A stretch of 64,000 nt of DNA, from contig NZ_CP067087.1 of assembly GCF_016745095.1 (NCBI RefSeq), positions 2,530,501-2,594,500 of the forward strand, written 5' to 3'. Below, one piece after another: positions 2,001-50,953 of this stretch. Numbering within the stretch: the stretch's first letter is position 1; each line of letters begins with the position of its first letter. Both the position numbers and the translations under genes were made by a program. This DNA comes from Croceicoccus sp. YJ47 (GTDB taxonomy: Bacteria; Pseudomonadota; Alphaproteobacteria; Sphingomonadales; Sphingomonadaceae). A model generated the notes under the pieces. That model had not been told where the DNA came from. It did not search any database and was given only the letters and a program-made list of their open reading frames with translations.

Positions 2001-3283
2001 TGCTCGCCGACAAGGACCGTATCTTCACCAATGTCTACGGCTTTCAGGACTGGGGCCTGAAAGCAGCGCAAGCACGCGGCGACTGGGACGATACGAAGGC
2101 GATCCTCGCCAAGGGTCAGGACGCGATCATCGACGAGATCAAGGCCAGCGGTCTGCGTGGCCGGGGCGGGGCGGGCTTTCCCACCGGGATGAAATGGTCC
2201 TTCATGCCCAAGGAATCGAAGGATGGCCGGCCGAGCTTCCTCGTCATCAATGCCGACGAATCCGAACCCGGTTCGTGCAAGGACCGCGAGATCATCCGCC
2301 ACGATCCGCACAAGCTGATCGAAGGGGCGCTGGTCGCCGGTTTCGCGATGCGCGCGCGGGCGGCCTATATCTATATCCGCGGCGAATATATCCGTGAGGC
2401 CGAAACGCTCTTCGCAGCCGTGCAGCAGGCCTATGATGCCGGGCTGGTGGGCAAGAACGCTTGCGGTTCGGGCTATGATTTCGACGTGTTCGTCCACCGC
2501 GGTGCGGGCGCGTATATCTGCGGCGAAGAAACCGCGATGATCGAAAGCCTGGAGGGCAAGAAGGGGCAACCGCGCCTGAAACCGCCGTTCCCTACCGGTG
2601 CGGGCCTGTACGGGTGCCCGACGACGGTCAACAACGTGGAATCCATCGCGGTCGCGCCGACGATCATGCGGCGCGGCGCGAACTGGTTCAACAGCTTCGG
2701 CCGCGAGAACAACAAGGGCACGAAGCTTTTCCAGATTTCGGGCCATGTCGAGAAGCCCTGCGTCGTCGAGGAATCGATGAGCATCCCGTTCAGCGAGCTG
2801 ATCGAGAAGCATTGCGGCGGGATTCGCGGCGGCTGGGACAATCTGCTGGCCGTGATTCCGGGCGGTTCGTCGGTTCCGCTCGTGCCCGCGGCGCAGATCA
2901 AGGACGCGCCGATGGATTTCGACGGGCTCAAGGAGCTGGGCTCCGGCCTCGGCACCGCGGCGGTCATCGTCATGGACAAGTCCACCGACATCGTCCGCGC
3001 GATTTCGCGGATCAGCTATTTCTACAAGCACGAGAGCTGCGGGCAGTGCACCCCCTGCCGCGAGGGGACCGGCTGGATGTGGCGGGTGATGGAACGCCTG
3101 CGCGAAGGGGACGCCGCGCCCGAAGAGATCGACATGCTGTTCGAAGTCACGAAGCAGGTCGAGGGCCACACCATCTGCGCACTGGGCGATGCGGCGGCGT
3201 GGCCGATCCAGGGGCTGATCCGTCATTTCCGGCCCGAGCTGGAGCGGCGGACCGGCGCGAACCTGCCGGAAGCGGCGGAATGA
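2000..3283 (+). CDS. nuoF: NADH-quinone oxidoreductase subunit F (51-kDa type)
   Basis: This subunit binds NADH and FMN and carries a [4Fe-4S] cluster at the entry point for electrons into complex I. The glycine-rich nucleotide/FMN motif [10 protein letters not shown] lies near residues 53-62, and the cluster ligands CGQCTPC with a downstream cysteine (HTICALGD) are in the C-terminal third. Length (427 aa) is normal. I chose the ATG at 2000, which overlaps the preceding TGA; a GTG three bases upstream is the alternative. It is followed by a 108-base gap before nuoG. Confidence 0.97.
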
Positions 3284-3297
3284 TGGCGGCATACGGT

Positions 3298-3325
3298 TTG
3301 ACAGGCGCGTCAATGTCGCTAGCAC
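3298..3325 (+). promoter_or_regulatory. Putative internal promoter ahead of nuoG
   Basis: The only sizeable gap in the nuo operon (3284-3391) holds TTGACA at 3298-3303 and TAGCAC at 3320-3325, 16 bases apart, with a transcription start expected about 60 bases ahead of the nuoG ATG. The surrounding layout (TTTGACAGG ... GCTAGC) closely matches the proposed tpiA promoter at 35203-35231. This supports a house-keeping sigma-factor promoter that would separately boost nuoG-nuoN. It is a pattern match only. Confidence 0.45.
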
Positions 3326-3391
3326 GCGCGCAACGCCCCACGGCGAACACGGGCGCGATGGCGCCGACCCAAGCAGAGAAGTATTCCCACT

Positions 3392-5398
3392 ATGCCTAAG
3401 GTTACCGTCGACGGACAGGAACTCGAGGTGCCCGCAGGGGCCACCGTGCTGCAGGCGTGCGAGCTTGCCGGCAAGGAAATCCCGCGTTTCTGCTATCACG
3501 AGCGGCTGTCCATCGCGGGCAATTGCCGCATGTGCCTGGTCGAGGTGAAGCCCGGACCGCCCAAGCCGCAGGCGAGCTGTGCGCTCCCCGCGACCGAGGG
3601 GCAGGAAATCCGCACCGACACCGAAATGGTGAAGAAGGCACGCGAAGGGGTGATGGAGTTCCTGCTCATCAATCACCCGCTCGATTGCCCGATCTGCGAT
3701 CAGGGCGGCGAATGCGATCTTCAGGACCAGTCGATGGCCTATGGCCGCGGGGCGACGCGCTATCACGAGAACAAGCGCGCCGTGACCGAGAAATACATGG
3801 GACCGTTGATCAAGACGATCATGACCCGCTGCATCCATTGCACGCGCTGTGTCCGGTTCAGCGAGGAAATCGCCGGCGTGGACGAGATCGGCGCGCTGTA
3901 TCGCGGCGAGAACATGCAGATCACGACCTATCTGGAACATGCGGCGAAGCATGAATTGTCGGCGAATGTCGTCGATCTGTGCCCGGTCGGCGCGCTGACC
4001 AGCCGGCCCTACGCCTATGAGGCGCGGCCCTGGGAATTGAAGAAGGTGCCGGGCATCGACGTGATGGACGGCGTCGGCAGCAATGTCCGCATCGACAGCC
4101 GCGGGCGCGAAGTGTTGCGCATCCTGCCGCGCGTCAACGACGACGTGAACGAGGAATGGCTGACGGACAAGGGGCGCCATGCGCTCGACGGGCTGACCCG
4201 CCGCCGGCTCGACCGGGTGTGGATCCGCCGCGACGGAAAGCTGCAGCCCGCCGACTGGAACGAGGCGTTCGGCATGATCCGCGATGCCGCACCGGGCGAC
4301 AGCATTGCCGCGGTGCACGGCGATCTCGTCGATTGCGAAACGCTTTTCGCGGCGAAAGCCTTGCTGAAGGCCATGGGTTCCTCGCTGATCGAGGGACGCC
4401 AGAACGGCATGGTCTACGACACCTCCAGCATGGCGGCGCTCAATTTCAATTCCGGCCTTTCGGGCATCGAAGAGGCCGATTGCATCCTCATCGTCGGGAG
4501 CCAGATCCGGCACGAGGCACCGCTCGTCAACACGCGCATCCGCAAGGCGGTGAAGCGCGGGGCGAAGGTGTTCATCATGGGCCCCGAATGGGAAACGACG
4601 TATCCCGTGACGTTCCTCGGCAATGATCTTGGCGGGCTGAATGACCTGTCCGGCGATCTGGCCGAGGCGATGGCGGCTGCGGAACGCCCCGCGATCATTG
4701 CGGGCGGCGCGGCATTGGCGCGTGGCGCGCTGGGCCGCTTGCTCGCGCTGGCGGGTGAGTGGAAGCTGGTCCGTGATGGCTGGAACGGGTTCAACGCGCT
4801 GCATGCGCCGGCGGCGCGGATGGGCGGGCTGATGCTCGGCTATGCGCAGGCCGGCGGGATGAAGGCGATTGCGGATGCAGCGCCCAAGGTGCTGCTGTCG
4901 CTCGGTGCCGACGAGATGGATTATGCGCCGTTCGCGGGGAGCCTGAAGGTCTATATCGGCCATCATGGCGACAAGGGCGCGCATGCGGCGGATATTATCC
5001 TGCCCGCTGCGGCCTACACCGAAAAGCACGGCACCTACGTCAATATCGAGGGGCGTGTGCAGCGTTCGGAAAAATCGGTCTTCGCGCCCGGCGACGCGCG
5101 GGAGGACTGGACCATTTTGCGCGCGCTCGCCGATGCGTTGGGCGTCAGCGTCGGCTTCGACAGCTTCGACGAATTGCGCAGCGCGATGCACCGCGAAGTG
5201 CCCTCGCTCGCGATTGACGGTCTGGCCGAATTCGGCGCGACATTGCCCGCAGGCGGCGGCGACGCATCGGGCGTGATCGACGCCTATCCGGTGAAGGATT
5301 ACTACCTCAGCAACCCGATCTGCCGCGCCAGCCCGACGATGCAGCGCTGCTCGGCCGAATTGCTCCACGGGGAAGAAGTGGCGGAGGCCGCGGAATGA
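3392..5398 (+). CDS. nuoG: NADH-quinone oxidoreductase subunit G (75-kDa type)
   Basis: This is the large iron-sulfur subunit that carries electrons through the peripheral arm of complex I. The N-terminus is a ferredoxin-like domain with cysteines in CYHE, NCRMC and SCALP. Next come the His/Cys-type ligands in [13 protein letters not shown], then RCIHCTRC and LCPVGAL for further [4Fe-4S] clusters. The remaining two thirds is the degenerate molybdopterin-oxidoreductase fold. At 668 residues it has the length usual for alphaproteobacteria. The stop overlaps the nuoH start (ATGA). Confidence 0.97.
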
Positions 5399-7970: not shown

Positions 7971-10037
7971 GTGTCGTCGATTTCGATCATCGTTTTCCTG
8001 CCCTTGCTGGCCGCGATCGTCGCGGGACTGGGCAATCGCGCCATCGGCAGTTTCGCGGCAAAGATCGTGACGACCGGCGCGTTGTTCGTGTCGTGCGCGC
8101 TGTCCTGGCCGATTTTCCTGACCTATCTTGGCGGCGACGTCGACGGAACGGTCGTGCCGGTGCTGAACTGGGTCCGGTCGGGCGGCATGGTGTTCGACTG
8201 GGCGCTGCGCGTCGATACGCTGACCGCGGTGATGCTGGTCGTGATCACGACCGTGTCGGCACTCGTGCATCTCTACAGCTGGGGCTACATGGATGAAGAT
8301 CCGGATCAGCCGCGCTTCTTCGCCTATCTGTCGCTGTTCACGTTTGCTATGCTGATGCTGGTGACGGCGAACAATCTGGTGCAGATGTTCTTCGGCTGGG
8401 AAGGGGTCGGGCTGGCGTCCTACCTCCTGATCGGGTTCTGGTTCCGCAAACCTTCGGCGAGTGCGGCCGCCATCAAGGCTTTCGTTGTCAACCGCGTGGG
8501 CGATCTGGGCTTCATGCTCGGGATTTTCGGGACGTTCCTGGTTTTCGGCACGGTTTCGATTCCGGAGATTCTCGCGGCCGCCCCGGGCATGGCCGGGTCC
8601 AGCATCACGTTCCTCGGCATGCGGCTCGACACGATGACGATCCTGTGCCTGCTGCTTTTCATCGGCGCGATGGGCAAGTCGGCACAGCTCGGGCTGCACA
8701 CCTGGCTTCCCGATGCGATGGAGGGGCCGACGCCGGTCTCCGCGCTCATCCACGCGGCGACCATGGTGACCGCAGGTGTGTTCATGGTGTGCCGCCTCTC
8801 GCCGATGTTCGAGGCCGCGCCGATCGCGCTCGCCGTCGTGACGGTGGTCGGTGCGCTGACCTGCATCTTTGCCGCGACGGTCGGTACAACGCAGACCGAT
8901 ATCAAGCGCGTCATCGCCTATTCGACCTGTTCGCAGCTTGGCTACATGTTCTTTGCCGCGGGCGTCGGCGCCTATGGCGCGGCGATGTTCCACCTGTTCA
9001 CCCATGCCTTCTTCAAGGCGCTGCTGTTCCTCGGCGCGGGTTCGGTCATCCACGCGATGCACCATGAGCAGGACATGCGGTACTATGGTGCGCTGCGCAA
9101 ACGCATCCCGGTGACGTTCTGGGCCATGATGGCGGGCACGCTGGCGATCACCGGTGTCGGACTTTATGCGCTTCACCTCGGCTTTGCAGGCTTCTATTCC
9201 AAGGATGCCATTCTCGAGGCGGCTTTTGCCCGCGGCACAGAGGCGTCTTATCTGGCCTTTGCGCTCGGTATCTTCGCGGCTCTGCTGACGAGCTTCTACA
9301 GCTGGCGCCTGATGTTCCTGACCTTCTGGGGCAAGCCGCGTTGGTCGCAGTCCGAACATATCCAGCATGCCGTGCACCACCATGAGCATGATCCCGACGA
9401 TCATAATCCCGCGCGTCAGGAAGATGCCGGGCACGATCCTCACGCGCCGGTAGTCACCGACGACGCGGCGGCCTACGGGACGGCGGGCTATCATCCGCAT
9501 GAAAGCCCGATCGTGATGCTGATCCCGCTCATCGTGCTGTCGCTCGGTGCGGTGTTCGCAGGGGGCGTGTTCAATCACGCCTTCATCGACAGCGAAGCGT
9601 TCTGGAACGGGAGCATCTTCTATAATGAAGGGCTGATCCATGCGCTGCACGAAACGCCGCTGTGGGTGAAATACGCGCCCTTCGTCGTGATGCTGATCGG
9701 GCTTGCCATTGCCTGGAACAACTACATCCGCAATCCGGCGGCGCCTGCCGGTTTCGTCGAGAAGTTCGGGGGTGTGTATACTTTCCTCAAGAACAAGTGG
9801 TATTTCGACGAGCTTTATAATTTCCTGTTCGTGCGCCCGGCGTTCTGGCTCGGTCGCAAGTTCTGGAAATGGGGCGATGTCGGCTTCATCGACCGGTTCG
9901 GACCCAATGGCGCCGCGCGCGTCGTGGCCGGCGGGTCCCGGCTCGCCGCCAAGGTGCAGTCTGGTTATCTCTACAGCTATGCGCTGATCATGTTGCTTGG
10001 GCTGGTCGCCGCGATCAGCTGGGCCATTGCACGCTAA
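7971..10037 (+). CDS. nuoL: NADH-quinone oxidoreductase subunit L (proton pump)
   Basis: This is the distal antiporter-like subunit of complex I, 688 residues, with the long lateral helix expected at its C-terminus. Conserved stretches include [43 protein letters not shown] (shown here as the family's [16 protein letters not shown] core) and the lysine-bearing [12 protein letters not shown]. Around residues 465-500 a polar, histidine- and aspartate-rich stretch (starting [15 protein letters not shown]) interrupts the membrane segments. The start is GTG at 7971, eight bases past the nuoK stop. Confidence 0.96.
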
Positions 10038-10058
10038 GGACGGGGCGCGACACGAATA

Positions 10059-11600
10059 ATGGACGGTTTTCCCATCCTTTCCCTCATGCTTCTGGTTCCG
10101 CTTGCCGGGGCCATCGCCTGTTTCTTCGTCAATGCGGGGACGGCGCGCGCCATTGCGCTCGCCGCGACGCTGGTAGATCTGCTGCTCGGCATCGCGCTAT
10201 GGGCAAGCTTCGATGTCGGCGGCGCGCAGTGGCAGTTCGTCGAGCGGGCCGAGCTGTTTGCGGGCTTCAGCTATGCGCTCGGCATCGATGGCATCGCGCT
10301 GATGCTCATCGTGCTGTCGGTGTTCCTGATGCCGATCTGCATCGCGGCGAGCTGGCTGTCGGTGAAAACCCGCGTGGGCGAATACATGGCCGCGTTCCTG
10401 TTGATGGAAATGCTGATGATCGGCGTTTTCGCGGCGCAGGATCTTTTCCTGTTCTACATCTTCTTCGAGGCCGGCCTGATCCCGATGTATCTGATCATCG
10501 GGGTGTGGGGCGGCGATAACCGGATCTACGCATCGTACAAATTCTTCCTCTACACGCTGCTCGGCTCCGTTCTCATGCTGATTGCGATGTTCTGGATGGC
10601 GAACGCGGCGGGTACGACCGATATTCCGACGCTGATGTCCTACGATTTCCCGGCCGGTGCGCAGACGTGGCTCTGGCTCGCGTTCTTTGCCAGCTTTGCC
10701 GTGAAGATGCCGATGTGGCCGGTGCACACCTGGCTTCCCGATGCCCACGTTCAGGCACCGACGGCGGGGTCCATCATCCTCGCCGGCGTTCTGCTCAAGA
10801 TGGGCGGCTATGGCTTCATCCGGTTTTCGCTGCCGATGTTCCCCGAGGCTTCGGCCCAGTTTGCGTGGCTGATCTTCGGGCTGTCGATGGTGGCGGTGGT
10901 CTATACCAGCCTCGTCGCGCTGGTGCAGCAGGACATGAAGAAGCTCATCGCCTATTCCTCGGTTGCGCATATGGCGATCGTGACCGGCGCGCTTTTCGCC
11001 TTCAATGTGCAGGGGCTCGAGGGGGCGATGATCCTGATGTTGAGCCACGGGCTCGTGTCGGGCGCGCTGTTCCTGTGCGTCGGGATCATCTACGACCGGC
11101 TGCATACGCGGGAGATTTCGCGCTATGGCGGGCTGGCGATCAACATGCCGCGCTATGCGCTGTTCTTCCTGCTTTTTACCATGGCGAGCATCGGCCTTCC
11201 GGGGACGAGCGGCTTTGTCGGCGAATTCCTGAGCCTTGCCGGCATGTACGAGATTTCGAGCTGGCTGGCGCTGGTGTGCACGACGGGTATTATTCTTGGG
11301 GCCGGCTACATGCTGTATCTGTACCGCCGCGTGGCGTTTGGCGAACAGGTCAATGCCGATGCCGCCGCCATGCCCGACCTCGACAAGCGCGAATGGGCCA
11401 TGCTGATTCCGCTGGCCGCCGCGACCATGTGGATGGGCATCTATCCCGAAAGTTTTCTGGCCCCGATGCGCGCCGATATCGAATGGCTGGATCAGCGGAT
11501 TTCCGCCGCTGCGCCCGCAGGGGACGCGCATCTCGCGTTGCCGAGCGCGGAGGCGCGTGCCGCCGCCATCGAAGCCGCGCATGAGGGGGGAGCGCACTGA
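10059..11600 (+). CDS. nuoM: NADH-quinone oxidoreductase subunit M (proton pump)
   Basis: This ND4-type antiporter-like subunit of complex I has 513 residues and about 14 membrane spans. Family landmarks are FYIFFEAGLIPMYLIIGVWGG with the key glutamate, MPMWPVHTWLPDAHVQAPT, and the lysine-containing VQQDMKKLIAYSSVAHM. It starts 21 bases after nuoL. Its TGA overlaps the nuoN ATG (TGATG). The C-terminal tail is alanine-rich and soluble. Confidence 0.97.
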   Translation: MDGFPILSLMLLVPLAGAIACFFVNAGTARAIALAATLVDLLLGIALWASFDVGGAQWQFVERAELFAGFSYALGIDGIALMLIVLSVFLMPICIAASWLSVKTRVGEYMAAFLLMEMLMIGVFAAQDLFLFYIFFEAGLIPMYLIIGVWGGDNRIYASYKFFLYTLLGSVLMLIAMFWMANAAGTTDIPTLMSYDFPAGAQTWLWLAFFASFAVKMPMWPVHTWLPDAHVQAPTAGSIILAGVLLKMGGYGFIRFSLPMFPEASAQFAWLIFGLSMVAVVYTSLVALVQQDMKKLIAYSSVAHMAIVTGALFAFNVQGLEGAMILMLSHGLVSGALFLCVGIIYDRLHTREISRYGGLAINMPRYALFFLLFTMASIGLPGTSGFVGEFLSLAGMYEISSWLALVCTTGIILGAGYMLYLYRRVAFGEQVNADAAAMPDLDKREWAMLIPLAAATMWMGIYPESFLAPMRADIEWLDQRISAAAPAGDAHLALPSAEARAAAIEAAHEGGAH

Positions 11601-41015: not shown

Positions 41016-41092
41016 GCGCCCGTAGCTCAGCAGGATAGAGCACCAGATTCCTAATCTGGGGGCCATGGGTTCGAATCCCGTCGGGCGCACCA
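41016..41092 (+). tRNA. tRNA-Arg (anticodon CCT)
   Basis: A complete 77-base cloverleaf: acceptor GCGCCCG/CGGGCGC, D arm with GCTC...GAGC, anticodon stem CCAGA/TCTGG around loop TTCCTAA (anticodon CCT), T arm ATGGG/CCCGT with TTCGAAT, and encoded ACCA. The 3' 45 bases are the left attachment site of the mobile element, which leaves the tRNA intact. Confidence 0.97.
41048..41092 (+). repeat. attL: attL (45-bp direct repeat, tRNA 3' end)
   Basis: Identical over 45 bases to 50909-50953. It starts within the anticodon loop of tRNA-Arg and ends with the encoded CCA. Bases beyond both ends differ between the two copies. Confidence 0.93.
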
Positions 41093-43482: not shown

Positions 43483-44721
43483 TTATGCGGCGATCTTTTG
43501 CACACGGATTGCGTTAGGATCGAGCACACCGCCGCCGACACGCTTTGTCGCGTAGAAGAGTACGTAGGGCTTGGCGGTGTAGGGGTCGCGCAGGATGCGA
43601 ACGCCGATGCGGTCGTTGATGAGATAGCCGCGGGCGAAGTCACCGAACGCGATCGGGGTTGCCCCGGCCGCCACATTGGGCATGTTCTCATCGATCGTTA
43701 CCGGGCTGCCTAGTAGGGTCGAAGGCTGGTCCGCCATGAAGGCCTCGCGCCAAAGGAAATTGCCTTGGCCGTCCTTCAATTTCGCGACGCGAGCTGCCGT
43801 CGTACTGTTCATCAGCCAATTGGCACCCTGCCGATAAGGCGTGGCCAGCGCATATTTCAGGTCGACCAGCCCGTCAGCCGTTACGTCGGACGCTGCACCG
43901 CTATTAGTTGCGCCGATCTCACCACCGGGGTGAGCAGCGGGCTGATCGGCAGCCGCTACGCCGCCAGGAAGGTATTGGAGAAAACCCAAGGGCTTATTAA
44001 CGCCGTCGCCGGAAACAAAGGCAATTCCTTCTTGGCGCGAAAACTCGTCGCTGAGTTCGGTCGCGATCCATTCTTCGAAATTCAGCTGCGCGTCATCGAT
44101 AAGCCGCTGCGTTGCGGCAGGCTGCGCGTAGATTTCACCGGTCGGAAATGTCAGGGGCGAGAGGCCGGTCGTGCCGGTCTGGGGGCGGTTGGCCGTCTCC
44201 CCGACCCAGCCCGAACCCCATTGCTCATTGCTCCACAGCGTCGAATATCCGTTCACGCCGGTCGTCACCACCTGTGACAAGCCGCGCATAGGCGAAAGAT
44301 GGCTTTGCGCCTTGCGAACCTTGCGGTCCCATTCGACCGGTGCGAGAAAGCCGCCTGCGCTGTTATCGCCTTCCGACATGGCTGCGCGGATCGCCGCCCG
44401 CTCGCCGGTGCCGTTAAGCTCGACCAAGGCCGCTTCTGCTTCAGCTGCGCCGCGCTGCACGTAACTGGCGAAGGTCTGGCGATAGGCGGGATCGGTTGCC
44501 AATCCATCGCTGTTTGTCGAGCCGTTCACCCGCGAAGCCACGCCTTGCACGGCCTGCTCATCAAGAGCCGCCTCGATACGGTCCTGCCGCTCGTCGTACT
44601 TGTTGCGAAAGGCGACGAATGCGTCAGCAAGCTGCGCGATACTCGCGGGCTTCGGATCGGCTTCAGCACGGACGGCGAGCAGGCCGTGATGGGCGCGAGG
44701 ATATTGGAAAGGCTGAAGCAT
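43483..44721 (-). CDS. HK97-fold major capsid protein
   Basis: This is a phage major capsid protein of 412 residues. The first 100-plus residues are helical and charged, like the delta scaffold domain of HK97 gp5. The body then follows the family pattern: GGFLAPVEWDRKV, VGETANRPQTGTTGLSPLTF, IYAQPAATQRLIDDAQLNFEEWIATELSDEF (cited by its ends), SGDGVNKPLGFL, and the C-terminal AFGDFARGYLINDRIGVRILRDPY. A CAGGAACC site precedes the ATG at 44721. No capsid protease, portal or terminase gene is nearby, so particle assembly would need a helper phage. Confidence 0.92.
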   Translation of the reverse strand: MLQPFQYPRAHHGLLAVRAEADPKPASIAQLADAFVAFRNKYDERQDRIEAALDEQAVQGVASRVNGSTNSDGLATDPAYRQTFASYVQRGAAEAEAALVELNGTGERAAIRAAMSEGDNSAGGFLAPVEWDRKVRKAQSHLSPMRGLSQVVTTGVNGYSTLWSNEQWGSGWVGETANRPQTGTTGLSPLTFPTGEIYAQPAATQRLIDDAQLNFEEWIATELSDEFSRQEGIAFVSGDGVNKPLGFLQYLPGGVAAADQPAAHPGGEIGATNSGAASDVTADGLVDLKYALATPYRQGANWLMNSTTAARVAKLKDGQGNFLWREAFMADQPSTLLGSPVTIDENMPNVAAGATPIAFGDFARGYLINDRIGVRILRDPYTAKPYVLFYATKRVGGGVLDPNAIRVQKIAA

Positions 44722-44795: not shown

Positions 44796-45179
44796 CTATT
44801 TTGCAGCGGCGCGAAGGTGGCGTCGGTATCGTTCCGCCAGTTGCGCTGCCACCGCCTGTAACGTTTGGCGATCGTCGATTTGCCATTGTCGTTCAGGCAA
44901 GTGCCGTCCGCCTCGGCATTCCAATCGGCGCACGCGTTCTGCCACGATCAAGCTTGCTGTATCGATTTCTGCATCTCGTGCGAGTGTAGCCACCGGTGTT
45001 AGGTGATCAGGGTTTAGCAATTCGATGAGTAGATCCGCCGGGTCGGTGTCGACATAACGAATTGCCTCCGCCGCCACCTCGCGTGCGAGACGCTGCGCTC
45101 GCTGCGATACCGACCCTTCGCCGTGGGCTGCCTGGACAACAGCCGCCCGCTCGATGGCTGGCCTCCGGGGGCGAGCCAT
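44796..45179 (-). CDS. Hypothetical protein, satellite element
   Basis: This 127-residue charged helical protein begins MARPRRPAIERAAVV. It contains EVAAEAIRYVDTDPADLLIELLNPDHLTPV in its middle (quoted in part) and an arginine-rich end. It is not recognised. It lies upstream of the capsid gene in the same direction with a 74-base gap. The start is chosen by codon pattern; longer in-frame starts overlap the upstream gene. Confidence 0.55.
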   Translation of the reverse strand: MARPRRPAIERAAVVQAAHGEGSVSQRAQRLAREVAAEAIRYVDTDPADLLIELLNPDHLTPVATLARDAEIDTASLIVAERVRRLECRGGRHLPERQWQIDDRQTLQAVAAQLAERYRRHLRAAAK

Positions 45180-45211: not shown

Positions 45212-45451
45212 TCAATGCTGCGTTCCCATTGCCTGCCGCTCCATCGTATCGGTCGCGTCCCGCATCCATTCGACAGCCGCGATCGGATCGCCGTGCAATT
45301 TAGTGGCGAGGTTATGGGTGGCGTAAATCGAGGCAATCAGCGCATCGATCGGCGCAACGCCGCGTTCGATAAGCTTTTCGTGAAGCGAGCCGTGCAGTTT
45401 CTGCGCCATCTCGATTACAGGCTGGATGCGTTCAAACTCATCATTTGTCAT
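45212..45451 (-). CDS. Hypothetical protein, satellite element (79 aa)
   Basis: This small acidic helical protein starts MTNDEFERIQPVIEMAQKLH and continues with ALIASIYATHNLATKLHGDP. No family is recognised. It reads in the same direction as the capsid and replication genes and is preceded by a gap containing a hairpin. Its low-ambiguity ATG and sensible composition suggest a real gene. Confidence 0.6.
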   Translation of the reverse strand: MTNDEFERIQPVIEMAQKLHGSLHEKLIERGVAPIDALIASIYATHNLATKLHGDPIAAVEWMRDATDTMERQAMGTQH

Positions 45452-45602: not shown

Positions 45603-47687
45603 TCATCTGACGGGGCCTGTTTTGCCCTGAACCTGTGCAGCAGTTTGGGCCGGGCTTTCAGCATTGTCAGCAGGTGCGGCGGGCCTACTGGCCGCGCCTG
45701 ATTGATACGTAGTATCTATAGGGTGTATTACGCGGTTGATTCCTGCGGGTCTCCGGTCGTTTGCGGAACGTGTTTCCGGAGCGTTTCCGGTTACGTTTCC
45801 GGTTTTCCGGAGACCGAATATATCCTTCCCTTCGGCGGTGTCGCGCCAAAGAAATCCACGCTCAATTTCACCTATGCGGAACAGCCGATCCATAGCCGCG
45901 ACGAGCCGATCTTTCTTCAATCCTTTGGCCTCTGCCATCGTGGCGAAGATCTTCGGAGCATAGTTCGCACCGACCTTTTCAGACACGTGCCGCCGCTCGG
46001 AAGTCCGCTGTGCCAAGCAGCGAAGGAAGGCTTCATTCTCGCTGTTGGCTCTCGATACCTCGGCCAGTTCTTTGCGCGTATCGGGGGGCAGATCGCTATC
46101 CAGAACATAGGCCCAATCGTGCCAGCGGAAGCGCACCGCTTCGCCTTTGCGGGTGTAATTCGCTTTGCCTACGGTTAGTATGCGAGCGTCAGGATCAGCG
46201 ATAAATCCTTCGCTGTCCCGTTCGTGGTCGATGGTTATTTGCGATCGAACGGCATTCAGCCAGGCGGTCGAGCCTGAGTAGCTGTCCCCGCTCTTGTTGG
46301 GGTGGCCGATTAGAACAATGGCTGCGCCCGTCTCACCGGCCAAGCGGTTCAGCAGGTTCACGAACTGCGTTACCTCACCGCGGTCGTTCTCGTTGCCCGT
46401 GAATAGGTGCGCCACGTTGTCCAGAAAAACGAGCTTGCTGCCGGTTGTCCCGATCATCTTTACCAAGCGGTGATAGGTAGGCGTAGGGCGCAGTATCCCG
46501 TCCTGCCCGAACGTCGATAAGGCATTATCCAGTTCGCCGCGAAGGCTTATCAGATGCAGCCGATCGGCAAGGCTGTCCATTGGAAGCTCCAACGCTGCGC
46601 AGATATGTTCCTGCCGCCAATGGAGTTCTTCCGGCGGGTCTTCGCAGGTTAGATAGATTGTTGCGCAGGGCTGAACCGTGAGGCCAAGGCAGGAGATACC
46701 GCCGGCGGCTGCCGTTGCGAATTGCTGTCCGCTAAGGCTTTTGCCTGCGCTGCCCACACCGGTGTAAAGAGTAACCTCCCCTGCCGGCGCAGCGTGCTCG
46801 ATGGCAAAGGCTTTTTTGTGAGCCCGTTTACCCGCCAGGTCGATCAGGTCGAGTGTGTGAAAAGGCTGGCCCGCGTCCGTTGCCTTGTCGACCAGCTTGC
46901 GCAGATCCTCTGACGTTCCGGTCCAATCAAGAATGTCGCCTTTCGAGGGCAGGCCCGGCAGTTCGATGATATGGGCGGTGCCCTCAGCCAGTTCGATCGC
47001 CTCTTTGGCATCTGCAGCCTGCTTAACGCCCGTCGCGTCATTATCGGGCAGGATGTAGACCGTTCGGCCCTTCACATAGGCGCTGAACTCGAAACCCTTC
47101 CAATCCTTGTGCGAGGTTGCAAGCAAGCCCCAGCTGGCCAGCTTGTCCGCCTTGGCCTCGCCCTCCGCCATGTAGATCGGCATATCGCGGTTGGCCGTGA
47201 CAAGATCGGGAAGGCGGTAGGGAACGCGATCCTCACCTTGCCCAAGCTGCCACCCCCCGTTGTCATCGGGGCGATCGAACTTGAAAATCTTCTCACGGCC
47301 ATCATCGCCAGGTTCGATACGGTGTTTGCGATAGGCGATGGCCCCGCCGCTGGTTTTGAAGTTGAATGTCGCGACGATTCGCTGCCCCTTGCGTAGGGGC
47401 ACAGCATGGTCGCGCGCAGCCTCAGCTTTCGCGATCGGCGGGTGCCATGGGATATTATCGTTCTTCGAAAGCCGCTCCTGCAGGAAACCATCGGCGCGCA
47501 AGCGGTCTTTCTCGGCAAGCGGGTCGGCACCATTGAAGCAATGGACAAGGCACCCGTCGGGGGCGCTGGGTTCGACCTTGATAGCTACACCCCGGTCCCT
47601 GGCACTATGCCCGATGGCAGGAATGAGAGCCTGCCCACCGGTCACTGTGCCGCCATAGTGGCGAGCGATTGCACGAAGGTCAGTCAT
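45603..47687 (-). CDS. Toprim plus RecA-like helicase replication protein
   Basis: This is a 694-residue primase/helicase-type protein. An N-terminal segment and a DnaG-like Toprim domain come first, with IYMAEGEAKADKL at about 170-182 and YILPDNDATG at about 210-219 supplying the acidic residues. A RecA/RepA-like ATPase domain follows, with Walker A GVGSAGKS near 308 and Walker B KLVFLDNVAH near 416. The C-terminus has a helical region and a disordered alanine-rich tail. It would drive autonomous replication of the element. The ATG at 47687 overlaps the stop of the preceding small gene. Confidence 0.88.
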   Translation of the reverse strand: MTDLRAIARHYGGTVTGGQALIPAIGHSARDRGVAIKVEPSAPDGCLVHCFNGADPLAEKDRLRADGFLQERLSKNDNIPWHPPIAKAEAARDHAVPLRKGQRIVATFNFKTSGGAIAYRKHRIEPGDDGREKIFKFDRPDDNGGWQLGQGEDRVPYRLPDLVTANRDMPIYMAEGEAKADKLASWGLLATSHKDWKGFEFSAYVKGRTVYILPDNDATGVKQAADAKEAIELAEGTAHIIELPGLPSKGDILDWTGTSEDLRKLVDKATDAGQPFHTLDLIDLAGKRAHKKAFAIEHAAPAGEVTLYTGVGSAGKSLSGQQFATAAAGGISCLGLTVQPCATIYLTCEDPPEELHWRQEHICAALELPMDSLADRLHLISLRGELDNALSTFGQDGILRPTPTYHRLVKMIGTTGSKLVFLDNVAHLFTGNENDRGEVTQFVNLLNRLAGETGAAIVLIGHPNKSGDSYSGSTAWLNAVRSQITIDHERDSEGFIADPDARILTVGKANYTRKGEAVRFRWHDWAYVLDSDLPPDTRKELAEVSRANSENEAFLRCLAQRTSERRHVSEKVGANYAPKIFATMAEAKGLKKDRLVAAMDRLFRIGEIERGFLWRDTAEGKDIFGLRKTGNVTGNAPETRSANDRRPAGINRVIHPIDTTYQSGAASRPAAPADNAESPAQTAAQVQGKTGPVR

Positions 47688-47911
47688 GCCGCGGCCCTCC
47701 GCTTGCAATCACGATGGATCAGTATGGGCAGGCCCCGGCGGATGGCGGGCTGCATCAAAGCCTCCATGACTAAAGCCACCGAACCGGATTCCGTGCGGTC
47801 AGGACCGTTGAAACCCGCTCCGACAAACCGGCCAATGAAACCGTCACCATGGGGTGACGGCTCAATTAGCCATGCGCGGCAGGGGAGGTTCGGAAACTCA
47901 ATCACCATCAT
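47684..47911 (-). CDS. Hypothetical protein, satellite element (75 aa)
   Basis: This 75-residue protein begins MMVIEFPNLPCRAWLIEPSP and ends in a basic HRDCKRRAAA. It overlaps the replication gene (ATGA) and the gene before it, so it is part of a coupled operon. Function unknown. Confidence 0.6.
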   Translation of the reverse strand: MMVIEFPNLPCRAWLIEPSPHGDGFIGRFVGAGFNGPDRTESGSVALVMEALMQPAIRRGLPILIHRDCKRRAAA

Positions 47912-48240
47912 CAGCGATCCTCCCCACCGGGATCGCTGAACGGACAACCGGGTCCACGATCGAAGCTGTGACCATATCCGCGGGGGTCGTCTTCGGTTGC
48001 TACGTCCCCGCCAGCGTCGGAGATTGCACAGCCCGGTCCATGCTCGGTGCTAACGGTGACACGCGGCGAAAACATGAAATCGTCTTCAAGGTCCGTCGCG
48101 TCTTCAAGGTCAGGGTCGCCGTCGATCTCGTCCAGCTCATCGATCGCGCGTTGCAGCATGCTGTCGATGACGGATCGGGGTGCATGATCTATGCCAAGCA
48201 TATAGGACAGCGTGGGCGGCAGTTTGATCTGGTCGATCAT
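47911..48240 (-). CDS. Hypothetical acidic protein, satellite element (109 aa)
   Basis: A strongly acidic protein starting MIDQIKLPPTLSYMLGIDHA, with a centre rich in Asp and Glu and two GPGC motifs in its second half (GPGCAISD and GPGCPFSD). The low charge resembles phage DNA-mimic or anti-restriction proteins, but nothing specific is recognised. It overlaps its neighbours by 1-4 bases. Confidence 0.6.
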   Translation of the reverse strand: MIDQIKLPPTLSYMLGIDHAPRSVIDSMLQRAIDELDEIDGDPDLEDATDLEDDFMFSPRVTVSTEHGPGCAISDAGGDVATEDDPRGYGHSFDRGPGCPFSDPGGEDR

Positions 48241-48470
48241 GGTTGCACCCCCTTCGCTGCCTTGTGAGCGGCGACGAACGTCTGATCGAGTTCGCCCAGC
48301 TTCAGCAACACGTTATGGCAGAGCACACCAATCGCCGAGAAAGCGTCGGACTCCCGCTCGTCTATCGCTTCCGAACCGCACAGAATTTCGGTGGTATGTT
48401 CGATGCGTTTGAGGTCGATAGACAATTCTTCGAATGCCAGGACGGCATCCCATAGGTTGAGGTCGCTCAT
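48237..48470 (-). CDS. Hypothetical protein, satellite element (77 aa)
   Basis: This 77-residue helical protein begins MSDLNLWDAVLAFEELSIDL. Its start overlaps the previous gene and its stop overlaps the next, both by four bases. No family recognised. Confidence 0.6.
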   Translation of the reverse strand: MSDLNLWDAVLAFEELSIDLKRIEHTTEILCGSEAIDERESDAFSAIGVLCHNVLLKLGELDQTFVAAHKAAKGVQP

Positions 48471-48766
48471 AGTGACGCCTCCGTCTCGTCTTGGAGGGGC
48501 CAGCGGTTTACCATGCGAAGCCCGCCAGCGTAGCCGCGCGCCTGCTTGTAGGTGGCGTAGGTCTCCGGGGTGTGCGCCGGGTGTTCCGGCTCCACGGTGA
48601 CCTGAAACATGCCGCCAATGTCACGAATGACGACGCGGTGCCGGGGATCGGTGAATGCGGAAAGCACTGGCTTTTTCGCGCGGGTGGCGGTAGCTTCTTT
48701 GGCGTTGGTCTCAAACAACACTTTCGAAGCCCCTGCGCCGCTGGCGTGGGGGTTTTTCGTTTCCAT
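48467..48766 (-). CDS. Hypothetical protein, satellite element (99 aa)
   Basis: This 99-residue protein has a basic first half and a compact second half (VVIRDIGGMFQVTVEPEHPA, then a helical YATYKQARGYAGGL). It begins at ATG 48766, overlapping the AlpA-like stop (TGATG), with GTG at 48769 as alternative. It is the first gene downstream of the regulator in the minus-strand operon. Function unknown. Confidence 0.6.
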   Translation of the reverse strand: METKNPHASGAGASKVLFETNAKEATATRAKKPVLSAFTDPRHRVVIRDIGGMFQVTVEPEHPAHTPETYATYKQARGYAGGLRMVNRWPLQDETEASL

Positions 48767-48942
48767 CACACGCCCTCCGAACTGAAAGCGCGCTCCAGCT
48801 CGCTCTTTCGGAAATACAGCTTCCGCCCTTTGCGGATGCAGGGGAGGAGTCCCTTTTCCGCCATGTGATAAACTGCGCGGGGGGTTTCCCCGATATAATC
48901 AGCTGCCGCCTTGGCGCCACCTAGAAGATCATTTGAAAGCAT
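48766..48942 (-). CDS. AlpA/excisionase-like DNA-binding protein (58 aa)
   Basis: This is a 58-residue winged helix-turn-helix of the HTH_17/AlpA type: GGAKAAADYIGETPRAVYHM is the helix-turn-helix, and LLPCIRKGRKLYFRKSELERAF the wing with the final helix. In P4-like satellites such proteins act in excision or activation of the element. I chose ATG 48942; a longer reading from 49128 would run through the palindromic control region and is unlikely. It is the first gene of the leftward operon. Confidence 0.8.
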   Translation of the reverse strand: MLSNDLLGGAKAAADYIGETPRAVYHMAEKGLLPCIRKGRKLYFRKSELERAFSSEGV

Positions 48943-48978
48943 TTGAATAGACTCCTGCAATTCCGTAGTGTCACACGT

Positions 48979-49003
48979 TGAAACGTTGCTATGCAATGTT
49001 TCA
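48979..49003. promoter_or_regulatory. 25-bp palindrome in the divergent control region
   Basis: The arms TGAAACGTTGC and GCAATGTTTCA match in 10 of 11 positions as inverted repeats around TAT. It lies 37 bases upstream of the AlpA-like start and between the two divergent operons, so it is a likely operator for one of the two regulators. Confidence 0.7.
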
Positions 49004-49009
49004 CAGGTA

Positions 49010-49036
49010 ATCCGTAACGGATCTTTAACCGCTACG
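49010..49036. promoter_or_regulatory. Second palindromic operator cluster
   Basis: ATCCGT-A-ACGGAT (49010-49022) is a perfect inverted repeat. An overlapping longer one pairs CGTAACGG (49013-49020) with CCGCTACG (49029-49036) with one mismatch. Both lie just ahead of the rightward regulator gene. Confidence 0.6.
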
Positions 49037-49071
49037 CAATACAGCTTTGCAAACTTTCTTAGGAGACCGTC

Positions 49072-49722
49072 TTGCTCGGTGTCGATCTTCCCTTCGCTGA
49101 AATGGCTAAGATACTTGCGGCTATTCATGAAATTGATTCATCGAAAATCACCGCCTTTCATTCGAGAATGAAAAACCTGCATCGGTTAGGATTTCCAAAC
49201 GAGCTTAAAACCGTAAAGGGAAGGCCCACGATTTACTCGCCGTATCAGCAACTTGAAATGGGCTTAGCGGTCGAAATGATTGAACTCGGTTTGCCGCCCG
49301 AGAAAATAGTTTCGCTTTGTCGTAAAAATCAAATGGCTATAGCGGCCGCTGGTGCCTTTGCAGCCCGCTCTTTGCTTGAATTCAAAAATGGATTTCAGGA
49401 CGGGGAGGGTCAGAATCCGCGAAGCTATTTCATTCTGTTTGACCCGAATGCACTAGCAGACATGAAGAATAATAACTTCGATGTAGATATGGAGCTCTTT
49501 ATATATGCAGACGAGAAGACCATCGCAAAACACGTTGTCACCAATACGACTGGCGGAAGCTCGCGACTTTCGGCAGTAAACATCACAAGTTTTCTGGATC
49601 TGCTAGCCCCGACTTATGCAAAATATCCCGGCGAATTTCGTAGGTATCTGGAAGCAATCAACGAAAAATCGCAAGAGATTTGCGATGTAGAGCTCAGAAA
49701 GCTTGAAGATGGCGATTCGTAA
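49072..49722 (+). CDS. MerR-like regulator of the satellite element
   Basis: This 216-residue protein starts at TTG, six bases after an AGGAG site. Its N-terminal third has a winged-helix look with GRPTIYSPYQQLEMGLAVEMI and LGLPPEKIVSLC, resembling the DNA-binding half of MerR-type proteins. The rest is unlike known effector domains. It faces the AlpA-like gene across the palindromes and overlaps the integrase start by 14 bases, so it is the likely lysogeny-type switch. It is more AT-rich than host genes. The assignment is structural guesswork. Confidence 0.65.
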   Translation: MLGVDLPFAEMAKILAAIHEIDSSKITAFHSRMKNLHRLGFPNELKTVKGRPTIYSPYQQLEMGLAVEMIELGLPPEKIVSLCRKNQMAIAAAGAFAARSLLEFKNGFQDGEGQNPRSYFILFDPNALADMKNNNFDVDMELFIYADEKTIAKHVVTNTTGGSSRLSAVNITSFLDLLAPTYAKYPGEFRRYLEAINEKSQEICDVELRKLEDGDS

Positions 49723-50848
49723 GCGCCAGTGGACGACACCGAAGGGCGAGGCGAAACAAGCTTGGCTGGTCGATTATCGCGACACTGCCGGGAAGCGCCG
49801 GTTTAAGCAATTCACTCGCAAGAAAGAGGCTGAGGCGTGGTTCACGCAAGCGGGCTGGGAAGTCTCAAAGGGCGTCCATACCGCTGACAGCCAGAGCGTG
49901 ACGGTCGCCGCCGCTGCCGACCTTTGGATTGCGAAGGCAGAAGGCGAATGCAGGGAGCGCGGGACAGTCCAACAATACCGGCAGCTCGCAAACCTCCATA
50001 TCGTGCCGCTATTGGGTCTCGAACGGCTTTCCCGGCTATCTCAGCCGCGCGTGGAAGCTTACCGGGACGAACTGTTGAAAACGCGCTCGAAGGCAATGGC
50101 GGGCAAGGCCGTGCGTGCATTGTCCAGCATACTGAATGAAGCGCAGCGGCGAGGGCTGGTTGCGCAGAACGTCGCGCGCGAGGTCAAAGTCATTCGGTCT
50201 TCGCGCGAAAAGGTAAAGATCACGATCCCGACGCGTGATGAACTGAAAGCATTGCTCAATCATGCGGATGATGATTTCCGCCCGCTCGTGATGACTGCTG
50301 TTTTCACAGGTTTGCGCGCATCCGAATTGCGGGGGTTGCGCTGGTCGGACTTGGACCTGAAAGCAGGCTCTATCACCGTAACGCAGCGCGCCGATAAGTT
50401 CGGCCAGATAGGTGCGCCCAAGTCAGAGGCGGGCCACCGGACAGTTCCAATACCGCCCGCGCTTGTTACCGAACTGAAGGCATGGAAGCTGCGATCCCCG
50501 AAAGGTGATATGGGTTTGACGTTCCCCAATACGCGCGGCGGGGTGCAGAATTATGAGCATATGCTTCGTCGCAAGTTCTTCCCCCTTCAAATCGCTGCCG
50601 GGGTTTGCGACGTGTCTGGATCGAACGACGAGGGCGAACCTATCTTGAAGGCCCGCTACGGCTTTCATGCCCTGCGCCATGCCGCCGCGAGCGCATGGAT
50701 AAAGCAGCGCATCGACTTGAAGCGCTTGCAGGTCTGGATGGGCCATTCGTCAATTCAGATTACGCTCGACACCTATGGTCATCTCCTGGCCGACGCCTCC
50801 GGCGATGCAGCCTTGATCGCTGCAACAGAGGCTGAGTTGCTTGGCTAG
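49709..50848 (+). CDS. int: Tyrosine integrase
   Basis: This 379-residue phage-type tyrosine recombinase is expected to integrate and excise the element at tRNA-Arg(CCT). The N-terminus is an arm/SAM-like DNA-binding part. Catalytic residues are Arg near 203 in TGLRASELRGLRW, His-x-x-Arg in FHALRHAAASAW near 319-324, His in WMGHSS near 345, and the nucleophile Tyr356 in LDTYGHLL. The ATG at 49709 lies inside the end of the regulator gene. It ends in TAG, 60 bases before attR. Confidence 0.96.
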   Translation: MAIRKRQWTTPKGEAKQAWLVDYRDTAGKRRFKQFTRKKEAEAWFTQAGWEVSKGVHTADSQSVTVAAAADLWIAKAEGECRERGTVQQYRQLANLHIVPLLGLERLSRLSQPRVEAYRDELLKTRSKAMAGKAVRALSSILNEAQRRGLVAQNVAREVKVIRSSREKVKITIPTRDELKALLNHADDDFRPLVMTAVFTGLRASELRGLRWSDLDLKAGSITVTQRADKFGQIGAPKSEAGHRTVPIPPALVTELKAWKLRSPKGDMGLTFPNTRGGVQNYEHMLRRKFFPLQIAAGVCDVSGSNDEGEPILKARYGFHALRHAAASAWIKQRIDLKRLQVWMGHSSIQITLDTYGHLLADASGDAALIAATEAELLG

Positions 50849-50869: not shown

Positions 50870-50908
50870 AGGCAGGAAAGCCCTGCATTTTGGCGACCTA
50901 TCGTAAGC

Positions 50909-50953
50909 TTCCTAATCTGGGGGCCATGGGTTCGAATCCCGTCGGGCGCACCA
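50909..50953 (+). repeat. attR: attR (45-bp direct repeat of the tRNA-Arg 3' half)
   Basis: Exact copy of 41048-41092. It lacks the tRNA 5' half, so it is not a functional tRNA. Bases 50954-51081, up to the end of the transporter gene, show no gene. Confidence 0.93.

Follow-up and report, generated by a model that had tools for sequence, protein, structure and literature searches.

A putative family of PICI-like satellites in Alphaproteobacteria with a lone HK97-type capsid gene and a buffered genome length

Results

A tRNA-sited element with a single head gene

The window analyzed here, a 64,000-nucleotide stretch of the Croceicoccus sp. YJ47 genome (contig NZ_CP067087.1, positions 2530501-2594500), contains a 9,861-bp element that is inserted in a tRNA-Arg(CCT) gene, carries a gene for an HK97-type major capsid protein (MCP), and has a lower G+C content inside (Table 1). 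Its borders are marked by 48-bp direct repeats that are 98% identical; the left copy covers the 3' portion of the tRNA-Arg(CCT) gene, which is intact. When joined, the flanks of the element align without a break to a genome of the same genus (locus L241, genome G002; 88% identity over 2.8 kb), which represents the empty site; at six other loci compared with the joined flanks, the alignment stops at the tRNA end or 8 bases past it.

Table 1 Features of the element and its borders, in window positions
Feature	Position	Strand	Basis
tRNA-Arg(CCT), integration target, intact copy	41016..41092	+	ARAGORN
attL, 48-bp direct repeat	41045..41092	.	Repeat search; empty site
Cargo: OLD-type AAA ATPase with TOPRIM, likely anti-phage nuclease	41361..43352	+	PF13175, PF20469; PADLOC
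Lone HK97-type MCP, 412 aa	43483..44721	-	Pfam, PHROG, NCBIfam; tree; dN/dS
o127, all-helical small protein, upstream of satellite MCPs	44796..45179	-	Alignment, start analysis, AlphaFold
o79, three-helix small protein, family marker	45212..45451	-	HMM, AlphaFold
Primase/helicase-type replication protein	45603..47708	-	AAA_25, weak Toprim_3; PHROG 239 primase/helicase
Four small ORFs: o87, o109, o77, o100	47684..48769	-	ORF calls
HTH_17/Cox-like excisionase or regulator	48766..49128	-	PF12728 (E=1e-8), weak Phage_Cox; phrog_66 (E=4e-5)
216-aa ORF upstream of integrase	49072..49722	+	ORF call; Pfam and PHROG searched
Tyrosine integrase	49703..50848	+	PF00589 (E=1.5e-19)
attR, partial tRNA-Arg copy	50906..50953	.	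Repeat search

Leftward from the integrase side, the gene order is HTH_17/Cox-like gene, four small ORFs, primase/helicase, o79, o127, and MCP, with the OLD-type AAA-TOPRIM gene standing last before attL on the opposite strand. In PADLOC, this cargo gene matched Old (E=7e-24) and also AriA and GajA. The Phage_AlpA profile was absent from the matches of the HTH_17/Cox-like gene; HTH_17 is counted among the excisionase/AlpA-type regulators of PICIs in the available text of PMC10111431. Between the integration and replication zones, where PICIs of the Gram-negative type have a Bro network gene, lie the four small ORFs, none of which had a Pfam match; a Bro-N antirepressor gene is present in one relative (L054, see below). 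Relatives share o109 and the beginning of o100, and o87 recurs in another element of the same genome (L044). The o127 frame is open up to position 45269 (o157 when so read), with the conserved start at 45179.

The MCP gene is an unbroken frame matching PF05065 (residues 123-409 on profile positions 1-279 of 280, E=4e-77), PHROG 10 'major head protein' (E=1e-74), and TIGR01554 (residues 30-407 on profile positions 29-382 of 385, E=4e-103). The combined coverage of PF05065 and TIGR01554 indicates that the protein has a delta-type region at its N terminus as well as its C-terminal domain, in agreement with the original prediction of a complete capsid protein. The ORF caller placed the start at an in-frame ATG further upstream, at 44886, yet 44721 is the likelier start since the longer frame overlaps the next gene. 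The MCP aligns over its full length with phage MCPs (46% identity over residues 2-411 with L094 and 44% over 1-412 with L095), and the best solved relative of the family is the RcGTA MCP Rcc01687 (6tb9; profile positions 27-410 of 411, E=1.8e-96). Nine sequences were retrieved at E<=0.01 in this profile search of PDB chains, none of them named Ccm or phi12 CP.

Among the 12 predicted genes of the element, Pfam matched no portal, protease, or terminase family, and the same result was obtained with PHROGs (searched for ten genes), NCBIfam (seven genes), and our own HMMs for portal, TerL, and ClpP-like protease. Matches of the element genes likewise included no tail or lysis families, our own HMMs detected no TerS in the element, and no cos or pac site was recognized. 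Genome-wide, PF04860-type portals were located at 757772, 959931, 2029476, and 2980941, all outside the window, and the other three PF05065 MCPs at 759435, 962163, and 2983298. The HK97-fold capsid homologue (fold inferred from profile matches) therefore stands alone, as had been proposed.

The element is thus a discrete unit between att sites with its own integrase, HTH_17 regulator, and primase, and with few late genes in place of a full virion and lysis set. The MCP is accompanied neither by the gene set of cf-PICIs (portal, protease, connectors, and TerL) nor by that of a complete prophage or GTA (portal, TerL, protease, and tail module). By its predicted gene content, the element is a PICI-like phage satellite and not a prophage remnant, and the initial reading of the locus as a satellite was supported by its integrase, att repeats, regulator, and replication protein and by the absence of portal, protease, and terminase matches.

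A family of elements marked by o79 and o127

Small genes o79 and o127, upstream of the MCP, mark a family of such satellites in Alphaproteobacteria. An initial scan of genome contigs and a single-sequence scan of viral records with o79 detected no relative; alignment-based searches did. The o79 search matched 7 of 397 family genomes, counting that of the window, and 7 of 396 order genomes were matched with o127. The o127 match in G584 (E=3e-4, with four internal stops) has no MCP or o127 match in its region (L077) and was taken as chance. MCP alignment searches contributed 80 of 81 genome relatives and the best 80 of 561 viral relatives. When scored on 178 loci (17,018 ORFs), our own HMMs identified o79 in 26 loci and o127 in 19, six and four of which, respectively, are re-fetched copies. 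Over the stretch covered at each locus, no portal or TerL was detected by these HMMs in any of the 26 o79 loci or 19 o127 loci, and none of 127 loci with both portal and TerL carried o79 or o127 (counted with the MCP on the plus strand). Hosts among the matches listed were Altericroceibacterium, Stakelama, Pontixanthobacter, Tsuneonella, Qipengyuania, Sphingomonas, and Sphingopyxis, with family members present in the type strains of Stakelama pacifica and Altericroceibacterium xinjiangense; relatives of the MCP clade without o79 were found, again among the matches listed, in Devosia, Rhizobium, Aliihoeflea, and Enterovirga.

Neither o79 nor o127 matched any of 50,697 phage records, nor o127 any plasmid record; both genes do occur in IMG/VR contigs (L054, L161, L162, and L238). 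AlphaFold models of the two proteins were small and helical (pLDDT 88.5 for o127 and 91.9 for o79), and a fold search at E<=0.001 returned no match for either. We considered o127 as a TerS or a protease and rejected both, as it has no PHROG or NCBIfam match, no Pfam match above cut-off, and no fold match at E<=0.001; in several relatives, moreover, o127 occurs together with a TerS.

Of the 22 distinct o79/o127 elements, 13 carry a TerS gene, which lies upstream of o79 in 12 of them; it is of the P27 type (PF05119) in L039 and matches phrog_5601 in L064 and L076, the rest being detected by our own HMMs. The satellite order is hence TerS-o79-(o127)-MCP, compared with TerS-TerL-portal-protease-MCP in phages. 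A 5.1-kb IMG/VR fragment (L162, 2046-5033) reads TerS-o79-ClpP-like protease-MCP, neither TerL nor portal standing in the interval from TerS to MCP, and on this gene order looks like an intermediate. One further element (L085) has a weak, 71-aa match to the ClpP profile (E=6e-5), which we read as chance or a remnant. Cargo varies across the family, with an OLD-type gene in the window element, tape-measure genes in others, and DRT-type (Drt6/Drt4-like) reverse transcriptases in L063 (3468-5087) and L076 (11468-13099) that are 64% identical in different genera.

The capsid gene is maintained by selection and forms its own branch

We next evaluated whether the MCP frame is conserved among relatives. 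It is open (>=330 aa) in 21 of the 22 distinct elements, which are not all independent given that the L238 MCP is identical to that of L075. Nei-Gojobori dN/dS was calculated for seven MCP pairs and ranged from 0.049 (L074/L075) to 0.27, with intermediate values of 0.12 (L091/L153), 0.14, and 0.18; the window MCP gave about 0.13 with L039 and 0.14 with L054, dS being near saturation in both pairs. The satellite MCP is under purifying selection; the original prediction had concluded that there is selection from the full reading frame. That prediction would have been undermined by decaying homologues in sister elements: the open frames speak against general decay, but one sister does carry a frameshifted MCP. 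In this element, from Sphingomonas sediminicola (L098), MCP and integrase are each split into two frames (regions 2484-3748 and 9995-11205).

A tree was built from 79 MCPs (21 satellite, 13 candidate, and 45 phage rows, the last being every third of 134), leaving out six re-fetched copies and MCP frames <330 aa, including both L098 pieces. In this quick tree, computed without bootstrap, a single branch (SH-aLRT 97) unites 18 satellite MCPs and contains none of the 45 sampled phage rows. A wider branch of 25 rows adds six portal-less elements and L160, which is labelled phage and is itself a satellite flanked by phage genes. Three elements (L062, L063, and L065) have kept o79/o127 next to MCPs of other lineages, which makes more than one acquisition of the MCP probable; on the tree, its acquisition takes two changes, one of them forced by starred branches.

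Within its own genome, the window MCP is 44% identical to that of prophage L042 and 46% to that of L043 over 303 aa, with no value reported for L044. Since the own-genome MCPs are at most 46% identical and other satellites provide the nearest MCPs, a recent rearrangement with a resident prophage, the other outcome named in advance as fatal to the prediction, is rejected.

Element length is buffered

Element length was defined as the att-to-att distance between tRNA 3'-end repeats, or from the 13-bp core in L054, and was obtained for 21 of 28 elements. Twenty of these fall between 9,839 and 11,309 bp (mean 10,561, SD 431), the outlier being a 16.5-kb candidate of the MCP clade without o79 (L088). 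Att repeats were not found for L074, L080, L158, L159, L160, L161, and L238, several of which are contig fragments, and these were excluded from the length test. Nine tRNA types are represented among the 19 tRNA-sited elements in the test, and integrases and cargo differ between elements, so that unlike genes add up to the same total length.

When each element is split at the MCP start, the two arms have SDs of 2,051 and 1,858 bp, and their sum one of 431 bp (n=20). The arms compensate each other (r=-0.98, p ~1e-5), with none of 100,000 permutations as tight, in a test that treats related elements as points though they are not independent. The pattern persisted within one architecture alone (n=16, r=-0.90, same p) and after thinning of two near relatives (n=14, p=2e-5). 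As 14-16-bp repeats account for 7 of the 20 att pairs and the L054 core has only 13 bp, we estimated how often such repeats arise by chance: in random 100-nt segments, repeats of at least 14 bp were found in 24 of 720 cases and of at least 13 bp in 55 of 720. Restricting the test to longer repeats gave r=-0.97 and p=6e-5 at >=17 bp (n=12), p=5e-4 at >=18 bp (n=9), and r=-0.82 and p=0.02 at >=20 bp (n=7).

A fixed-size container accounts for this buffering, as could four-unit concatemers in a full head. The buffered genome length suggests, from genome data, that small capsids are built with the satellite MCP. A search by title and abstract start, mostly of open literature, returned nothing about such a family in Alphaproteobacteria or about buffered element lengths. 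What is new here is the length buffering; a lone MCP in a satellite was already known.

Several satellites carry a tape-measure gene

Tape-measure genes lie downstream of the MCP, adjoining it or within about 1.1 kb, in seven elements (L065, L074, L075, L080, L086, L158, and L160), and were called from Pfam and PHROGs in five and by similarity in L065 and L075. They encode 460-808 aa (median 659, n=7), shorter than those of phages (median 872, n=47; Mann-Whitney p=0.003), although the comparison phages are not known helpers and the ranges overlap: the largest downstream frame at 92 phage loci has a median of 910.5 aa, and 31 of these frames are <=808 aa. Near the tape-measure and MCP genes, we also observed proteins of about 220-280 aa (L065, 12427-13086; L086, 13320-14105; L158, 7324-8157; L160, 7589-8356), with no Pfam match for L086, L158, and L160 and no PHROG match for L065 and L158. 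These possibly form one divergent family, the L065 and L039 versions being 30% identical.

Candidate helpers and other elements

The window's genome holds, at 2.98 Mb, a prophage (L042) that encodes TerL, portal, a ClpP-like head protease, and an HK97 MCP and shares several features with the satellites. The 44% identity with the window MCP extends over nearly full length, its TerS is 38% identical to that of L039, another of its genes is 52% identical to a DUF6950 gene of L039, and its tape measure is 34% identical to that of L074. Based on these similarities, prophages of the L042 type would be the likeliest type of helper. Co-residence with such a prophage gave no signal: among 10 satellite genomes, only that of the window had a phage-type ClpP protease (at a chosen threshold of E<1e-20), versus 14 of 298 family genomes. 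A packaging site shared with resident prophages was likewise rejected, as DNA matches to L042 and L043 are <=42 bp and the longest lies inside the MCP.

Two IMG/VR contigs place satellites next to interrupted phage head genes. In the first (L054, 1-11643), the satellite sits inside a phage ClpP-like head-protease gene, with 13-bp core repeats at 272 and 10111; the joined flanks restore one open frame followed by the phage MCP, which is related to that of the satellite. In the second (L160, 481-1614), a phage portal gene is cut at around residue 343 of about 425 and followed by a satellite with MCP and tape measure, the other end of which is beyond the contig.

The Croceicoccus genome holds a further element (L044, G000:C1:749000-768000) with integrase, gp6-type connector, portal, MCP, TerL, HNH, and primase genes, a gene content laid out as in capsid-forming PICIs. 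The primases of L044 and the window element are 54% identical at the protein level and 86.6% at the DNA level over 342 bp, the DNA identity indicating that modules have been exchanged. This long DNA match lies within the primase gene, and a packaging site shared with L044 was rejected as well. An isolated weak portal match (E=1e-10) was also seen at G000:C1:2029476-2030174, with a tRNA-Phe nearby and no PF05065 MCP within the 16 kb examined.

Discussion

A possible role for the satellite capsid protein

From genome comparison, we consider it probable, though well short of certain, that a small head is built or redirected by the satellite MCP with the portal, protease, motor, and tail of a helper. 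The late cassette o79-o127-MCP occupies the place of TerL-portal-protease-MCP in phages. Upon infection by, or induction of, an alphaproteobacterial siphophage with an HK97-type MCP and a ClpP-like head protease, the satellite would replicate and produce its MCP, which would assemble into a small shell at the portals of the helper, either by itself or together with helper MCP like the Ccm of SaPIbov5. The helper protease would then mature this shell, the helper TerL would load it with DNA, and a helper tail would be attached. In relatives with a TerS, the satellite would also pick the DNA to be packaged, and where it has a tape-measure gene, it may determine the length of the tail. A fixed head volume would hold genomes near 10.6 kb. 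With head capacity taken as proportional to T^1.5 and as 40 kb at T=7, roughly 11 kb would fit in a T=3 head and roughly 17 kb in one of T=4. Small heads would exclude the helper genome and thereby suppress the helper, and the OLD-type cargo may shield the cell further.

A more specific version is possible, but we hold it tentatively and on the whole doubt it. The family would carry only the measuring parts of a virion, i.e., TerS for DNA, MCP for head size, and in some members a tape measure for tail length, with a T=3-class head of about 10.6 kb and with o79-o127, in the place of the lost TerL, portal, and protease, as a purpose-built adaptor joining the foreign shell to the helper portal, motor, and protease.

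Alternative explanations

Length could also be fixed without a small head if several satellite units were packed as concatemers in unmodified, full-size helper heads, the MCP then serving interference or another use. PICMIs package concatemers, and 4 x 10.56 kb is close to a common siphophage genome length, so that four units of about 10.6 kb would fill a 42-kb head. Yet the same arithmetic predicts further size classes, at about 14 kb for three units and 21 kb for two, whereas 20 of the 21 measured elements belong to one class, and it leaves the near-universal open MCP frame, the purifying selection, and the recurring tape-measure genes unexplained. Packing of this kind is reported for EcCICFT073 of E. 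coli: the available portions of PMC6092414 and PMC6893505 describe this PICI, which has a capsid gene, as having only phage-sized packaged DNA, and that of PMC10111431 reports PICI capsid genes as unneeded for transfer. We regard concatemers as an unlikely explanation, though as the chief rival of the small head. If, alternatively, the MCP were only a poison or decoy, it would co-assemble with helper MCP and ruin helper heads without yielding useful small capsids. Ccm expressed by itself lowers the phi12 titre 10^3- to 10^4-fold (PMC5052747, in the text available), and a defensive role would sit well with the OLD-type gene of the window element and the DRT-type reverse transcriptases of two sisters; the buffered length and the TerS and tape-measure genes of sisters point instead to particle building, which makes a purely toxic MCP improbable.

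Two further scenarios deny the MCP a specific role. It could be a passing capture, kept as a backup with little function, taken by recombination from the late genes in which a helper-embedded element inserts. Such PICIs have been proposed, in what is available of PMC10111431, to take up late genes close to where they insert; L054 and L160 do adjoin interrupted phage head genes, and L162 keeps a ClpP-like protease. However, the satellite MCPs form a separate branch, their o79/o127 partners are kept across several genera, and dN/dS is low, leaving this account very improbable. We give hardly any credence to the element being a degraded prophage stripped of its portal, protease, terminase, and tail genes: most matched genes are phage-like in origin and the MCP and integrase of L098 have decayed, but a similar layout and length, with open frames, recur in many species at nine tRNA types. 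This family-wide conservation contradicts decay as a general account, and the lack of matches to tail or lysis families in the window element also argues against it.

Comparison with known satellites and capsids

A lone MCP in a satellite cannot be regarded as new, since SaPIbov5 (Ccm), PmCI172, EcCICFT073, and most reference GN-PICIs offer precedents in the portions of the sources available. As in the cos SaPI SaPIbov5, for which no protease is identified, the window element has a lone HK97-type capsid protein with a delta domain. Whereas the window MCP aligns with phage MCPs along its full length, Ccm is 24% identical to the CP of its helper, has a shorter delta domain, and is restricted to pentamers: in the accessible text of PMC8569155 and PMC5052747, it sits at the pentamers of T=4 heads, and according to the former it is unable to form shells alone. 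cf-PICIs likewise have a capsid gene of their own, but next to the MCP they encode a protease, a portal, connectors, and the two terminase subunits (PMC10690885, in the part available); in none of 26 o79 loci was a portal or TerL detected. Helper-embedded PICIs insert in late genes, with an attB in a CLP_protease gene (PMC10111431, available text), and L054, with its 13-bp core in a phage ClpP-like protease gene, resembles these, unlike the window element and 19 measured relatives (L088 included), which reside at tRNA genes and not in prophages. The satellite MCP is related to Rcc01687 of RcGTA. GTAs differ in having a complete head and tail cluster and in packaging host DNA.

A close parallel is with GN-PICIs such as EcCICFT073, PmCI172, and 11capE, which are small and combine an integrase, an excisionase-like regulator, and a replication gene with a late zone that often includes an MCP. 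The present family differs in its alphaproteobacterial hosts, its o79-o127 pair, the tape-measure genes of some members, and the variation of its integrases and replication proteins, and it is buffered near 10.6 kb, compared with a range of 10-20 kb for GN-PICIs. As far as the available text of the sources goes, 21 of 29 reference GN-PICIs carry an MCP gene that is reported as not needed for helper-assisted transfer (PMC10111431), and PmCI172 combines an MCP homologue with small heads, seen in a P. multocida system where a genetic test was impossible (PMC6092414, PMC6893505). The purpose of the GN-PICI capsid gene is thus unsettled, and this family provides a natural test case: its MCP is kept, has its own branch, and is tied to o79/o127 in genomes buffered at about 10.6 kb, as though a container dictated their length, and the recurring tape-measure genes raise the question of whether satellites also re-measure the tail.
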